Positions 4,246-15,073 of a DNA stretch of 22,315 nucleotides are shown here, piece by piece. Below the pieces are notes generated by a model that searched no databases, was not told where the DNA came from, and saw only the letters and a list, made by a program, of their open reading frames with translations. The position numbers and the translations under genes are program-made. Within the stretch, counting starts at the first letter, position 1. Each line of letters begins with the position of its first letter. The DNA is from a virus. Location of the stretch: IMG/VR virus record IMGVR_UViG_3300037278_000090, positions 1 through 22,315 of that record, one strand, 5' to 3'.

Positions 4246-4629
4246 ATGGCAACAGGACCCATCGTACTGACTTCCGATACAACCCCCTCCCCCGAACAGA
4301 TTCGCCGCGAGTTCGACCTTCCCTCTGGCAAGCACGTGATCTTGCTGAAAGGTACTGGTCGTGACCAGCGCCTGGCCGCTACGGTCGCCGGCGAGAATGC
4401 CGACAGCATCAAGATTCAGGACGCCCTGGCTTCCCGTCTGTCCCTCGTGGACGGCAAACGCATCCGCATGGAAGACGTGGACGAGATGGACTTCGACGAT
4501 GCGATGGTGTTTCGCGCCGAGGTCTCTCAGGTATTGCGCCCTTTGCTCCAGAGGATTTCGAGTGTCCTGAAACCGGATCAGGACGCGCCGAAACCCGCAC
4601 AGGACGCGGCAACCGACCAGTCGTCCTAA
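4246..4629 (+). CDS. Tail assembly chaperone, first part (Mu gp41 / P2 gpE-like)
   Basis: A 127-residue acidic protein beginning at ATG 4246 after a GAGGTGAT ribosome binding site. It has a compact N-terminal domain (residues 1-100, with PSGKHVILLKG and a MEDVDEMDFDDAMVFRAEV helix) and a Pro/Asp/Gln-rich tail, as in phage tail assembly chaperones of the Mu gp41/P2 gpE kind. Location between tube and tape measure is diagnostic for these genes, which coat the tape measure during tail assembly. Family assignment is by context plus composition rather than a unique motif. Confidence 0.7.
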   Translation: MATGPIVLTSDTTPSPEQIRREFDLPSGKHVILLKGTGRDQRLAATVAGENADSIKIQDALASRLSLVDGKRIRMEDVDEMDFDDAMVFRAEVSQVLRPLLQRISSVLKPDQDAPKPAQDAATDQSS

Positions 4630-9863: not shown

Positions 9864-11150
9864 ATGCCGGTCATAATCCCGAATCAATCATTCCCATCGG
9901 CCACCGGCACTCCTCAGACGGTTCCTGTTGACCTGCCCACGCCTTCATTCGTCAACGACTCAGACGGCTTAGATGCAACGCTGGTCCTGAACGACATGGT
10001 GAGCAAGTTCGAGACAGACACCGGCAGGACCCTCTACCCGGCCCAGGTCGAGCAGTTGCTTATCAACCTCTACGCCTACCGCGAGATTCTGGTCCGGAAC
10101 GCGATTCAGTATTGCGGACTTCAGAACCTGCTCGCATTCGCCGTCTACCCGATGCTGGACTACCTCGGCGAGTATCTGGATTGCCCCAGACTCCCCGCGC
10201 AGTACGCCACGACGACGCTACAGTTCACGCTCACCGCGGCGCAGTCGTCCGACACCACGATAGCCTCTGGCACGCAGGTCGGGACTCAGGACGGCCTCAA
10301 CATCTTCGCCACAACATCAGCGCTCACGATTGCCGCTGGACAGACGACAGGGACCGTGGCGGCGCAATGCACTACGGCAGGACTCAGCGGCAACGGCTAC
10401 CTCGCTGGGCAGGTCAGTGTCCTGATGGGTTCTTTCCCGCTTGTCTCTGCCGTCTCCAACACGACGACCACGGCCAACGGAACGGCAGGTGAACCGGCCG
10501 GAACCACTGCGGGAGACAACCACTACCGCACACGCATCCAGGCGGCACCGAACAACCTCACGACGGCAGGACCATCTGGCCAGTACCGGTCTCTTGCGCT
10601 CGACGTGAGTTCGACAATCGTTGATGCACAAGTCCCGACTAATCCGACAACGCCGGGCACGGTGCAGGTCTATATCTTGACAGGACCCGTAACCCAACCA
10701 TCGGCATCCCCAAACAGCAACGGCATCGCCTCTGGCACCCTGCTTTCTGCGGTTCAGTCGGCCCTCAGTGCTCAGACCGTGCGGCCTCTTTGCGACACCG
10801 TTCTAGTCTCCGCTGTGACTGAAGTCGATTACACGGTGACCGGCGCGATCACGCTTTACGCCAACGCCAGCTACTCAACCATCGCTGCTGGTATCACTGC
10901 GGCGGCGCAGAACCTCGCTCTGACACTCGCTGCAAACATTGAGCAGGACATAGTCCTGAGTCAGTGGCAATCGGCTCTCAGCGTGTCTGGCGTCTACGAT
11001 ATGCAACTGACGCTTACTGCGAACATCGGCGGTACACCACTCACGCCAACCTCGGACGGTAGCTTTTTGCTCACGGCGGGACAATGGGCAAACTGTACTG
11101 CAATCAACTTGACTATCGTCATGGGCACAAAGAACCAGCCAGTTAGCTAG
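9864..11150 (+). CDS. Baseplate wedge protein, gpJ-like
   Basis: A 428-residue protein with ATG directly after the W-homologue TAA. The N-terminal helical part (AQVEQLLINLYAYREILVRNAIQYCGLQNLLAFAVYPMLDYLGEYLDC) and central Thr-rich beta region (ASGTQVGTQDGLNIFATTSA, AGEPAGTTAGDNHYRTRI) match the baseplate_J family (P2 gpJ, T4 gp6-like). The C-terminus has a conserved-looking DIVLSQWQSALSVSGVYD. It dimerises to form the wedge ring in related phages. In P2 the next gene is I; here a fibre cassette intervenes. Confidence 0.9.
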   Translation: MPVIIPNQSFPSATGTPQTVPVDLPTPSFVNDSDGLDATLVLNDMVSKFETDTGRTLYPAQVEQLLINLYAYREILVRNAIQYCGLQNLLAFAVYPMLDYLGEYLDCPRLPAQYATTTLQFTLTAAQSSDTTIASGTQVGTQDGLNIFATTSALTIAAGQTTGTVAAQCTTAGLSGNGYLAGQVSVLMGSFPLVSAVSNTTTTANGTAGEPAGTTAGDNHYRTRIQAAPNNLTTAGPSGQYRSLALDVSSTIVDAQVPTNPTTPGTVQVYILTGPVTQPSASPNSNGIASGTLLSAVQSALSAQTVRPLCDTVLVSAVTEVDYTVTGAITLYANASYSTIAAGITAAAQNLALTLAANIEQDIVLSQWQSALSVSGVYDMQLTLTANIGGTPLTPTSDGSFLLTAGQWANCTAINLTIVMGTKNQPVS

Positions 11151-11169: not shown

Positions 11170-13131
11170 ATGAAACGAATCGCGCTCTTTATTTTCCTGA
11201 TCTTGTCAGTTATCACATGCTTTGCGCAGACCCAGATTGACCCGACATATCAAGTAGCATGGAACCTTTTGACCGGATCAGGTGCGCCGTCGAACAGTTG
11301 CACGCAAAATGGTAACTACACAGTTTATCCGTATGGCGCAGAGTGGGGCCAGTCTTATCAGGACACGACGAACAACGTGCGGTATAACTGCACATCGACT
11401 GGATGGATGCAGGGAGCCGCTTCCTCAGGCATAGTGCCTATCGTGGACGGCGGCACAGGGGCAACCACAGCAGCCGGGGCGCTGGTGAACCTTGGCGCAG
11501 CCCCAGCCTTTACGCTGACCACGACAGGCACCAGCGGCCCGGCTACGTACGGTGGGAACGTCATAAACATTCCGCAGTATGCAGGCAGCGGCGGCGCAGG
11601 AGTAACTCAAATCATCGCTGGAACAAACGTTACAGTGTCGCCGTCTGGCGGAACAGGCGCTGTGACGATCAACGCTACGGGGGGCGGAAGCGGAGGAGTC
11701 CAATATAATCCGCCGAATACTGTGTATATGTGGGGCGCAGGGGATTCGTCAATCTCTGACGATGGCCGATTGTATGGTGGCAGCACGACAGCAACGGCAG
11801 CAAATTGCAACGGTACAGTGTGTATCATCACCGCTCCGAATAGCTATGCGGCCGGTCAAACTATTTGGATTGACGGGACGTGGAGTCCGAGCTTTTTGAA
11901 TACTGTAACGGCACCTCAATATCTCGGGACCGGGCATGGATTTTATCAAGTAATTTCGACCGGCCTAAGCAGCACTCAATTTGAGTTTGCATATACTTCA
12001 GCCAGTGGTACGGGAACTGGCGGAACTGTACGTGATACCAGCTATATGGTGCCGTTTCTTTCAGGCTCAATGCCATTTTTGAATGGACACGGAACCACAA
12101 TCGTAGAAGTCGGTCAAGAGTCAGGACAAGGATTTACGATTCAAGCGTCTCTCGATAACTTCTCAGCGCTTTATGGGTCTTATGCTCCCAACGTAACCGG
12201 TAATCCCGGCTTCTTCTTTATTTCAGGATGGAAAAACGACGTGGGAGCACTGAATGAGAGTGCGAGTACCGTTGTATCCAACATACAATCGCTCATGGCA
12301 CTGGCTCATGCGTCAGGCTGGCAGGTTATCGCGATGACAGAGTGGACGTCGGTTACTGGCGGAAATATGACAACCAGCTATATGGCGCAGATCAACAGCG
12401 ATATTTTGCAGCTAGGAAAAACCAACGCCAACGCTTCCAGTGGCCAATATTGGGATTATATAGTCGATGCGGCATCGGGAGTTACAGATCCGGGTCTCAC
12501 ATATACACCCTCAACTGTTCCGCTTATAGCCGCCAAAGTAAACGAGGCTTTTGCGTCACAAAAATCGGCAACCACTGGACTGTCTACGATGTTTTCTCTT
12601 GATACCGGTCCGAATACATGGAGAATGCAAGGGAATAACGGATTAGAAATTTGCGCAGCAAACAACCCAGTCTGTATGTTAACTGTCTATTCAAATGGTA
12701 ATACGACGTCGGTGAATAATTTCAATGAAACTCAAACAGCAAGTGTAAATGACCGTGGTGGTACTGGAATTGGAAGTCCGATTCTCGTATCTAATCCAAG
12801 TTCTTACTATCCTACCGGCGTCACAGAATACTTCCCAAGCTTGTCCGCTGGCCAATACGGAAGCATGTTGTATGCCTATGACCAGATTGGCGATCACTTT
12901 TCATTGCACATGGAAAATACAGGATCAGCGAGCATTTTCGGAATAAGTGGCTCACAAGAATTTTCATCGACACCAACAGATATACTGCAAGTGTTTGCCA
13001 ATGGCAATGTGGCAATCCCCGCTGAAGCACCGTTCGCAGGGTATGCCGCGTGTTTCACGACAGGCGGAACAATGGGTCACTGTACGTCAATTATAGGAGC
13101 AACCGGAACGTGTACGTGCGTCACACCGTAG
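11170..13131 (+). CDS. Tail-fibre-like protein with Sec signal peptide and possible SGNH hydrolase domain
   Basis: A 653-residue protein with AAGGAGA upstream of ATG 11170. Residues 1-19 look like a cleavable signal peptide (MKRIALFIFLILSVITCFA, then QTQ), which is unusual for a virion fibre. Residues of about 88-110 hold the tail-fibre motif VDGGTGATTAAGALVNLGA, then AGTNVTVSPSGGTGAVTIN. The middle (about 180-460) resembles an SGNH/GDSL fold: GAGDSSISDD (block I-like), FFISGWKNDVG (block III-like GxND), and DPGLTYTP near the end where block V would have Asp-x-x-His but His is missing. The mature part has ten cysteines by my count. The gene looks AT-richer than its neighbours and lacks the iterated CAGGACTC motif, suggesting recent acquisition. 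Receptor-binding or polysaccharide-modifying function is inferred. Confidence 0.72.
   Translation: MKRIALFIFLILSVITCFAQTQIDPTYQVAWNLLTGSGAPSNSCTQNGNYTVYPYGAEWGQSYQDTTNNVRYNCTSTGWMQGAASSGIVPIVDGGTGATTAAGALVNLGAAPAFTLTTTGTSGPATYGGNVINIPQYAGSGGAGVTQIIAGTNVTVSPSGGTGAVTINATGGGSGGVQYNPPNTVYMWGAGDSSISDDGRLYGGSTTATAANCNGTVCIITAPNSYAAGQTIWIDGTWSPSFLNTVTAPQYLGTGHGFYQVISTGLSSTQFEFAYTSASGTGTGGTVRDTSYMVPFLSGSMPFLNGHGTTIVEVGQESGQGFTIQASLDNFSALYGSYAPNVTGNPGFFFISGWKNDVGALNESASTVVSNIQSLMALAHASGWQVIAMTEWTSVTGGNMTTSYMAQINSDILQLGKTNANASSGQYWDYIVDAASGVTDPGLTYTPSTVPLIAAKVNEAFASQKSATTGLSTMFSLDTGPNTWRMQGNNGLEICAANNPVCMLTVYSNGNTTSVNNFNETQTASVNDRGGTGIGSPILVSNPSSYYPTGVTEYFPSLSAGQYGSMLYAYDQIGDHFSLHMENTGSASIFGISGSQEFSSTPTDILQVFANGNVAIPAEAPFAGYAACFTTGGTMGHCTSIIGATGTCTCVTP
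11638..11688 (+). repeat. 51-bp perfect direct repeat, copy 1
   Basis: Fifty-one bases identical to 13442-13492, encoding SPSGGTGAVTINATGGG in the same codon phase in both genes. The copies start 1804 bp apart. Homology continues weakly upstream (about 70% by eye) but identity is exact only in this block, which suggests recent gene conversion or duplication. Confidence 0.95.
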
Positions 13132-13154
13132 CTTGTATTCAGCAGGGAAATAAC

Positions 13155-13193
13155 ATGCAATTGACAGCGGTAAAAGGGCCAACGGGGATTTAA
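13155..13193 (+). CDS. Possible 12-codon micro-ORF coupled to the fibre paralogue
   Basis: ATG at 13155 has AGGGAA upstream and encodes MQLTAVKGPTGI, ending in TAA that overlaps the ATG of the next gene (TAATG). It may be a fibre remnant or a leader that feeds ribosomes into the next frame, which has only a weak binding site of its own. This short frame could easily be chance. Confidence 0.3.
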   Translation: MQLTAVKGPTGI

Positions 13194-13615
13194 TGGAAAA
13201 TGCGAAGGACGGAAAAGACGAGAAGTTAATATGTTTCCAGTGCATCCATGAAGATGATATTCACAGGCTGCTGAAATCGCTTCTCGACGGAAATGGTCAG
13301 CCGTCCCTCATGCAGAGGTATACCGTGACTGAAATAGCGGCAGGAAGCAATGTAACGGTAGGTACATCTGGGAACACAATTACGATAAATTCTACAGGTG
13401 GTGGCGTCAGTCAAATCGTCGCTGGCACCAATGTGAGTATTTCGCCGTCTGGCGGAACAGGCGCTGTGACGATCAACGCTACGGGGGGCGGAGGCGGCGG
13501 TGTGGCGATTCTATCGAGTCAGGCCGCGGTGAGCAGTTGGCCGACTATTAATGTTTCGGGCGGATCGGGCGGTTCTGGCGGGGCAGGCTGGTATATGGAG
13601 TTTGCTGGTTGGTAG
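13193..13615 (+). CDS. Truncated tail-fibre paralogue (tip cassette)
   Basis: A 140-residue product with a hydrophilic N-terminus (residues 1-40, including CFQCIHEDDIHRLLKSLLDG) and then two fibre repeats: TEIAAGSNVTVGTSGNTITI and SQIVAGTNVSISPSGGTGAV, ending in a Gly/Ser-rich stretch and YMEFAGW. The second repeat shares 51 identical bases with the upstream fibre. It has no signal peptide. It stops at TAG 13613-13615, while a sensible fibre-like sequence continues in the -1 frame to 13740, so the gene is probably frameshifted or uses recoding. It may be a decayed or silent alternative tip. Confidence 0.55.
   Translation: MENAKDGKDEKLICFQCIHEDDIHRLLKSLLDGNGQPSLMQRYTVTEIAAGSNVTVGTSGNTITINSTGGGVSQIVAGTNVSISPSGGTGAVTINATGGGGGGVAILSSQAAVSSWPTINVSGGSGGSGGAGWYMEFAGW
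13442..13492 (+). repeat. 51-bp perfect direct repeat, copy 2
   Basis: Exact copy of 11638-11688, inside the truncated fibre paralogue and read in the same codon phase. Crossing-over between the copies would delete about 1.8 kb and fuse the signal-peptide end of the first fibre to this tip in frame. Confidence 0.95.
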
Positions 13616-13740
13616 TTGAGGCGAACGCGAGTACAACGCTGGCAACCAACGTCTACAACAGCGCACAAAGCAACACGGCGGTGACATTCACTTTTCCGGC
13701 ACTGACTGGCGGTTTGTTCTATCACTGCGATGGGAATTAA
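13612..13740 (+). pseudogene. Out-of-frame C-terminal continuation of the fibre paralogue
   Basis: In the -1 frame relative to the paralogue, an open stretch encodes VVEANASTTLATNVYNSAQS and then a beta-rich TAVTFTFPALTGGLFYHCDGN, ending at TAA 13738-13740. It has no start of its own. Composition and ending look like a fibre C-terminus, so one lost or gained base near 13580-13613 would restore a longer protein. About 10 nt further on, a second short frame (13749-13775) ends in CTGN, echoing CDGN, as if remnants of alternative ends lie side by side. The stretch 13776-13831 has nothing else I can name. Confidence 0.45.
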
Positions 13741-13837
13741 GTGACATCATGGTAGTAGCTTGCACCGGTAACTAAGTTGTGGGCGCTGCGGTGCCTGAGC
13801 AGGACCAGAATCTACGATAGAGGGACGGGCCAAAGGA

Positions 13838-13871
13838 GGGCCTGAGAAATATGGCAAACAATCTCAGGCCC
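13838..13871 (+). promoter_or_regulatory. Perfect 10-bp hairpin enclosing the gpI start codon
   Basis: GGGCCTGAGA (13838-13847) and TCTCAGGCCC (13862-13871) are exact reverse complements with a 14-nt loop that contains the ATG (13851). The ribosome binding site AAAGGAGG (13832-13839) runs into the 5' arm. In RNA this would occlude initiation, so it is a likely translational control element. A DNA operator is the alternative. Confidence 0.75.
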
Positions 13872-14984
13872 GCATCATCTATCAATGACCTCCGCACCCA
13901 AGCCCACATGCAACTCTCTGCTCGCCTTGAGTCCATCGACCTCACGCCTTTGCTTATCAGGACTCTAGGAAACAACCTCCCGGCATCCATCTTGCCCTAC
14001 TTGATATGGGAACTCGATATGATGATTCCGAGTGTCCCGATGCAGGCGTTGGGCGTAACATCCCAGACCATCATCCAAAATACTCTTCGGCTTCACAAGA
14101 TCATGGGCACGCCGGGAGCAATCATCCAGGCTCTCGGGCTCTGCGGCGCCACTGCGACCTGCTATGAGGGGCAGACGTCGTGGGGAGGATCTTCATATCC
14201 CGCTGACCAAGGGTGGGCCGTCTTCCGCGTGGGAGTGAGCGGATCAGGGCAAGCCCCAATTGGAGTTATCAATGGAGTTAACCGGTCTTTCAACCTTCCT
14301 GCGGTGCCAGTCGGGAATTCGTTGCGAGTCTTCTACAACGGGCTTTTGCAGCCAACCACGAACTACACCACATCAGGAACAGGACTCACGATGTCCTTTG
14401 CTCCTGCGTTGAATTCTGCGTTGGATGTCCTGATGCGCAAGGCCACGGACGGCACTCCGCTCTACTTCGATGCCGTTGTGCCGACCGTCTCGGGTTCGAA
14501 TCTGGTACTGCCAGACGCCCCGATTTCCATTGAACTCTACCGCAATGGATTATTCCAGATCATGGACACCACGCCAGCGCAACTCGGCTACATGGCCACA
14601 ATCATTAACTTCTTCAAGCCCGCACGGTGTCTGCTGGATTCAGTGTTCTCGGAATCTGGAGAGGATTACTACATCCTCGACGGCAACACCATCATTCCAT
14701 CTGTCCCGATTGGCAGCGCATCTTTTCTCGCTTGGGGAACCTACGCCGGAAGCGGAACTGAACCAAACTTTGCCGATTGGATTACTCCAGCCGGAACTCT
14801 AAACGGGATTAACAAAGTCTTTACGTTGCCGCAAGCCCCGAATCCCGCCGCCAGCCTTCGCCTTTACCGCGGATGGCAAGTTCTGAAGCCGGGAGGGGTT
14901 GACTTCACGTTGAGCGGCGCAACGATCACCTACACCATCGCCCCGCCGCCCACGGCCACGCATCTGGCATTCTATCGCTACTAG
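13851..14984 (+). CDS. P2 gpI-like baseplate/tail protein with C-terminal beta repeats
   Basis: A 377-residue protein. The first 100 residues match the Tail_P2_I pattern: QLSARLESIDLTPLLIRT, then LPASILPYLIWELDM and IIQNTLRLHKIMGTPGAIIQALGLCG. gpI lies at the baseplate periphery and connects to fibres. The rest is made of beta-sandwich repeats: INGVNRSFNLPAVP with VFYNGLLQPTTNYTTSG, and LNGINKVFTLPQAPNP with RLYRGWQVLKPGGVDFTLSG, typical of fibre-like modules. The start lies in a strong hairpin. In P2 this gene follows J directly; here it is separated from J by a 2.7-kb fibre cassette. Confidence 0.85.
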   Translation: MANNLRPASSINDLRTQAHMQLSARLESIDLTPLLIRTLGNNLPASILPYLIWELDMMIPSVPMQALGVTSQTIIQNTLRLHKIMGTPGAIIQALGLCGATATCYEGQTSWGGSSYPADQGWAVFRVGVSGSGQAPIGVINGVNRSFNLPAVPVGNSLRVFYNGLLQPTTNYTTSGTGLTMSFAPALNSALDVLMRKATDGTPLYFDAVVPTVSGSNLVLPDAPISIELYRNGLFQIMDTTPAQLGYMATIINFFKPARCLLDSVFSESGEDYYILDGNTIIPSVPIGSASFLAWGTYAGSGTEPNFADWITPAGTLNGINKVFTLPQAPNPAASLRLYRGWQVLKPGGVDFTLSGATITYTIAPPPTATHLAFYRY

Positions 14985-15023: not shown

Positions 15024-15073
15024 GACTCGCCACAGAGCCTCTTATCAAGGTCCCGCGGCGAGTCTTTTACTTT
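15024..15073 (+). terminator. Terminator-like hairpin in leader B
   Basis: GACTCGCC (15024-15031) pairs perfectly with GGCGAGTC (15057-15064), followed at once by TTTTACTTT. The arm begins exactly 20 nt after the first base of GACGGGTAC, the same distance as in leader A. A weak inner pairing GCCT/AGGT closes a loop with CTTATCA. It could terminate gpI transcription or act within its own leader. Confidence 0.6.

Follow-up and report, generated by a model that had tools for sequence, protein, structure and literature searches.

The closest described counterparts of the hairpin reported here are RNA structures at the translation start sites of phage genes and of one bacterial mRNA. At the T4 genes e, soc, 49 and I-TevI, according to the portion of PMC3014915 devoted to them, an inhibitory helix sequesters the Shine-Dalgarno sequence and/or the AUG and lowers 30S binding, and late transcripts of e and I-TevI escape it because their late promoters are located around the 5' strand of the helix. 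For T4 genes 38 and 25, the same portion describes a structure between the Shine-Dalgarno sequence and the AUG that helps translation. The mom gene of Mu, as outlined in part of PMC6483171, carries a translation inhibition structure at its start, with the GUG in the stem and the binding site of Com, the protein that opens it, adjoining, whereas the pertinent part of PMC6733600 presents experimentally backed metastable competing hairpins at the start of the Helicobacter pylori aapA3 mRNA, in which a synonymous codon is kept for folding.

The locus described here, on positions 1 to 22,315 of the IMG/VR virus record IMGVR_UViG_3300037278_000090 (22,315 nt, hereafter the window), shares features with each of these systems. 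Like the starts of the T4 e and I-TevI type, it has a stable predicted helix with the start codon in the loop and the last two Shine-Dalgarno bases in the helix, which is kept across relatives (44 of 44 in some form) without covariation. Unlike in e and I-TevI, the Shine-Dalgarno sequence itself runs into the 5' arm, so that a transcript starting within this arm would lack it. As in Mu mom, a hairpin that would need opening lies at a phage start site, but the ATG is in the loop rather than in the stem; the RNA structure at a phage start is also reminiscent of T4 genes 38 and 25, from which it differs in spanning the AUG. Competing start-site hairpins recall aapA3, although here they are a folding possibility from prediction.

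The hairpin on the start of the gpI-like gene is real. Its stem, hereafter stem A, is a perfect inverted repeat of the 5' arm GGGCCTGAGA (13838–13847; this and all other features listed with coordinates are on the plus strand) and the 3' arm TCTCAGGCCC (13862–13871), which corresponds to gpI codons 4–7, and the 14-nt loop between them (13848–13861) contains the ATG at 13851. Both arms, the loop, the ATG and the codons involved had been given in a preliminary description of this DNA in exact agreement with the sequence, but the ribosome binding site, said there to run into the stem, does so only with the last two bases of its AGGAGG (13834–13839), which lies 11 nt from the ATG. A second copy of the core of the 5' arm (GTGCCTGAGCAGG) is found about 47 nt upstream (approximately 13790–13805) and also in many relatives. 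Stem A is the sole perfect inverted repeat of at least 10 nt with arms within 40 nt in the window, and a helix of 10 bp crosses the gpI start, compared to 4–6 bp at the remaining 21 of the 22 window start sites examined. Nevertheless, at least one such perfect 10-bp stem occurs in 13 of 40 dinucleotide shuffles of the window (mean 0.475 per window), and the mere presence of a hairpin is thus weak evidence; by arithmetic from the shuffles, the chance of such a stem enclosing one of the approximately 22 start codons is about 0.6%. Folding with flanks had been put forward as a check in the preliminary description: the isolated 34-nt element folds at -18.1 kcal/mol with a z of -4.67, but with flanks z is only -2.0 (81 nt) and -1.2 (146 nt). 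The window had no Rfam match at the gathering score. An intrinsic terminator was considered and rejected, with no plus-strand site at the hairpin and the stem being followed by GCATCATC, with no T run; no sigma-70-like promoter was found near the hairpin by a scan that does not cover phage late promoters of other types.

The gene under the hairpin (13851–14984) encodes a gpI-like baseplate protein, matching Pfam Tail_P2_I (E 4.8e-5; 23.7 bits versus a cut-off of 20.6) and the PHROG tail family phrog_5726, and is preceded by gp25/W-like and J-like baseplate genes recognized by Pfam, the gpJ-like gene being located at 9864–11150 (Baseplate_J, E 6.3e-45). The gpI start at the ATG at 13851, as assumed in the preliminary description, is very probably correct: hairpin-free relatives open with the nearly identical peptide MANNLRPPSSINDLRT right at the gpJ end. 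The gpJ gene directly adjoins gpI in distant relatives, whereas in the window the two are separated by 2.7 kb with a fibre cassette (11170–13741) consisting of ORFs 11170–13131 and 13193–13615 and a shifted frame to 13741. The cassette ORFs gave no Pfam or PHROG match at 1e-3, and the label 'fibre' was chosen because of their sequence character and place. ORF 13193–13615 apparently continues in another frame to 13741 (region 13600–13741, ending in ...AVTFTFPALTGGLFYHCDGN), which seems, from the sequence, to reflect a frameshift, decay or a sequence error. Two neighbouring fibre ORFs have in common a 101-nt direct repeat (11599–11699 and 13403–13503, 85% identical), which may aid fibre exchange. 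The fibre-like ORFs at 11170 and 15368 have, as judged by eye, signal-peptide-like N-termini (MKRIALFIFLILSVITCFAQ and MKRSVKLIIALAALWLCAAFAIAQ), which are odd for virion proteins, and similar stretches were seen, again by eye, in fibre ORFs of L149 and L152. On the other side of gpI, between it and the next gene, lies a terminator-like stem, GACTCGCC...GGCGAGTC followed by TTTT (15024–15068), the inner 16 nt of which (15037–15052) are inverted between phages, with the window orientation in 7 and the inverted one in 24 of the sequences among L001–L033; the stretch is absent from L031 and L045.

The close gpI set comprises 44 genes, that is, the window and 43 IMG/VR records, 33 of them full-length relatives from a first search (in which two further matches were partial) and 10 more from an alignment-based search. 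The stem has 8–10 pairs in 39 of these genes (10 bp in 5, 9 bp in 28, 8 bp in 2 and 8 bp plus a terminal G-U in 4), an internal C-A mismatch in 4 (L045–L048) and a weaker, rearranged form in L031, the start region of which folds at -10.9 kcal/mol; it persists while the upstream fibre region differs among the relatives. The exact element is present in 35 IMG/VR contigs, one copy per contig, and by contig name all are gpI starts of relatives already collected. By contrast, a stem of more than 8 bp across the start was found in none of the 47 other relatives with a readable start (10 full-length and 37 partial or MAG; L090, which has no start, was left out), the longest helix being 8 bp, and the helices of 7–8 bp at 5 of the 37 partial or MAG starts are apparently due to GC-rich chance. 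No gpI relative was matched in the annotated phage collection or, with a single gpI query, in GTDB genomes; an alignment detected 12 distant relatives in bacterial MAGs of GTDB, titled Delta-/Proteobacteria or Binatus/Binataceae. The hairpin clade forms one side of a branch in 39% of bootstrap trees; a single origin is the simplest view and may be correct, although the tree does not decide the matter.

Gene order differs between the two groups. In all 17 hairpin records with gpJ placed (the window, L001–L003, L008, L009, L014, L019, L026, L031, L033, L046–L048 and L071–L073), gpJ and gpI are separated by 2.4–6.1 kb of fibre cassette, and beyond these, L013 would have a gap of about 3.1 kb were its record circular. 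In eight more distant full-length relatives (L076–L083), gpI starts from 1 nt before to 3 nt after the gpJ end, with the overlap TAATG in L081, and none of the eight has such a stem at the gpI start; L074 and L075 have a 788-nt insert, no hairpin and an altered 3' arm, and among 26 partial relatives, many show a 4-nt gpJ overlap and others are up to 253 nt apart. Given that the hairpin clade possibly has one origin, the correlation with gene order may rest on one event. Coupling of gpI to a frame inside the cassette was also considered and rejected: the stop positions share no common frame, and short leader indels speak against coding. Where seen, long fibre frames stop at least 58 nt before gpI; some other open frames end nearer to it, for example at -22 in L024 and -29 in L017, a frame without a start codon ends at -5 in L072, and frames in L008 and L010 end at +38 relative to gpI.

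The preliminary description held that pairing is imposed on protein-coding DNA and named covariation in relatives as a check. Pairing does overlap codons 4–7, and parsimony changes per column, counted over 25 representatives, reveal a strongly constrained segment: the third positions of codons 2–7 changed once in total, whereas the 94 fourfold sites beyond codon 7 average 5.2 changes each; the single change, CCC to CCT, preserves a G-U pair, and codons 2–7 are the lowest of 235 six-codon windows for synonymous change. The freezing breaks off sharply where the 3' arm ends, from codon 8 on, and includes the loop, which is frozen as much as the stem, with zero synonymous change in codons 2–4. Covariation failed to appear, with changes on both sides in 0 pairs; the 5' arm underwent 4 changes in 9 shared columns of the 25 representatives, each breaking a pair, and the variants that weaken the stem are uncompensated (T to C in L045–L048, T to A and G to T in L031, G to A in L008 and L009). 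This check is mostly uninformative because most changes in the 3' arm would alter the protein, and only 3 of the 9 shared pairs, at the third positions of codons 5, 6 and 7, can vary on that side without doing so. Furthermore, codons 2–7 are similarly frozen without such a hairpin in 5 of 13 control genes, gene D (15087) being equal to gpI and the genes at 4246, 4778, 7406 and 8770 low, and we accordingly dropped synonymous conservation as proof of pairing. Of the proposed imposition of pairing, the overlap with coding sequence and the retention in all close relatives stand; selection on the pairing itself is opposed by the lack of covariation, by uncompensated breaks at two stem positions and by the frozen controls. 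It is by structure, not by frozen codons, that the gpI start is set apart from the controls. In nine phages, the folding energy of the gpI start region is -10.9 to -19.6 kcal/mol, as against -2 to -9 kcal/mol for most control starts, with gene 6536 at -8.1 to -14.7 kcal/mol and gpJ at up to -12.5 kcal/mol, and across 14 distinct leaders, only 6–52 of 1000 synonymous recodings fold equally well. A pseudoknot between an upstream GCCA and UGGC in the loop, seen by eye in the alignment, was rejected, being broken in L018 and L031.

Starting from what is observed, namely the stem, its conservation, its location and the contrast in gene order, we favour, at about even chances, a translation-initiation hairpin in the mRNA that replaces coupling to gpJ and moderates gpI. 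In the distant relatives, ribosomes leaving gpJ would probably start gpI by translational coupling. In the hairpin clade, the cassette of 2.4–6.1 kb splits gpJ from gpI, so that gpI would need a start site of its own; it would have gained its AGGAGG Shine-Dalgarno sequence together with a stem, mostly of 9–10 bp, that encloses the start codon and takes in the last bases of that sequence. Any free 30S subunit would have to melt this stem, and by analogy with the T4 starts in the part of PMC3014915 that treats them, melting 9–10 bp should slow 30S binding, so that gpI synthesis would be moderated, perhaps since gpI is needed in fewer copies than the fibre protein. Clearing the 30S footprint is predicted to cost 14.1 kcal/mol for gpI, which is unexceptional within the range of 6.7–18.1 kcal/mol for other genes of the window; we therefore rejected this cost as proof of repression, and strong repression would not be expected. 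A moderating role alongside a good Shine-Dalgarno sequence fits better, and the hairpin probably tunes the amount of gpI made. Such a strong local fold would also leave the start site much alike whatever fibre sequence lies upstream. Insulation of this kind, raised in the preliminary description, is plausible: stem A has a probability of at least 0.76 in 23 of 25 natural contexts, but only 0.34 in L008 and 0.08 in L024. A more ambitious version, in which coupling has been replaced by a self-contained, context-proof, hairpin-gated start, perhaps with two states, keeping the gpI dose constant whatever fibre lies upstream, strikes us as unlikely.

The main competitor, possible though doubtful, is that the hairpin had a single chance origin at a gene boundary and has since been carried along by codons and a leader frozen for other reasons, either a general constraint on start sites or shared homology at the cassette edge that serves fibre exchange, the pairing itself being without a role. 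The frequency of such stems in the shuffled windows, the nearly frozen first codons of the stem-free control genes, the equal freezing of loop and arms and the lack of covariation are all as expected under chance origin, as are the sequence switches immediately upstream of the leader between phages that are otherwise alike (L005/L007 and L024/L025) and the occurrence of the leader before another gene in L152. However, a strong start-site stem is normally selected against, and most other starts are weakly folded; in each of the distinct leaders, the codons used rank close to the best of 1000 synonymous recodings; and the synonymous freezing halts abruptly past the 3' arm. Mobility of the leader bears also on a quite different explanation, which we regard as very improbable, namely, a site acting at the DNA level, for recombination or protein binding, at the right-hand boundary of the fibre cassette. 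Besides the position of the element, cassettes that carry the leader into L149, L150 and L152, in which neither a gpJ match nor a complete gpI was found, point in this direction. In the IMG/VR records L149 and L150, the leader precedes, without a matching 3' arm and behind a fibre cassette, a gpI remnant in which codons 1–5 are joined to approximately codon 44 (from 6898 on in L149 and 1259 on in L150), which, from the sequences, looks to be a trace of cassette transfer between phages. In L152, it precedes a different gene of 121 aa, only one of the six records of that gene having this leader, and L152 and L169 alike have the same leader before a different gene without the 3' arm. Fibre cassettes can thus carry the leader, whereas the 3' arm belongs to gpI. 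A DNA site sits poorly with the single copy per contig, with cassette junctions outside the block in L005/L007 and L024/L025 and with the overlap of the block with the Shine-Dalgarno sequence and start codon, to which much of its conservation can be attributed.

Another alternative, improbable in our view albeit a little less so than a DNA site, is a two-state RNA switch, built on the invariant GGCCA upstream of the Shine-Dalgarno sequence (13828–13832). Its GGCC (13828–13831) can pair with the GGCC of the 5' arm (13839–13842) to form a stem B with AAAGGAG in a 7-nt loop; stem B would form first, leaving the start codon free, and stem A would displace it once the 3' arm has been transcribed, opening a short translation window per mRNA. 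The motif has 0 changes in the 25 representatives, whereas the freely changing column next to it has 7 and fourfold sites average 5.2. In most of 7 leaders, short nascent prefixes are predicted to adopt B, with energies of about -6 to -10 kcal/mol, and A generally takes its place only after the 3' arm is added. Yet when up to 120 nt of natural upstream sequence is included, only 12 of 25 nascent leaders give B a probability above 0.5, B shows no covariation and loses its outer pair in 2 of 18 distinct rows, and the Shine-Dalgarno sequence is not clearly more open in the 7-nt loop.

As the evidence stands, the initiation hairpin of gpI is a well-conserved example of an already known class of control, with a putative function. 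Should it function in the manner proposed, it would show how a phage holds a structural protein at a steady dose beside an often-exchanged module and what replaces translational coupling once gene order breaks, and would represent a compact case of insulation in a mosaic genome.
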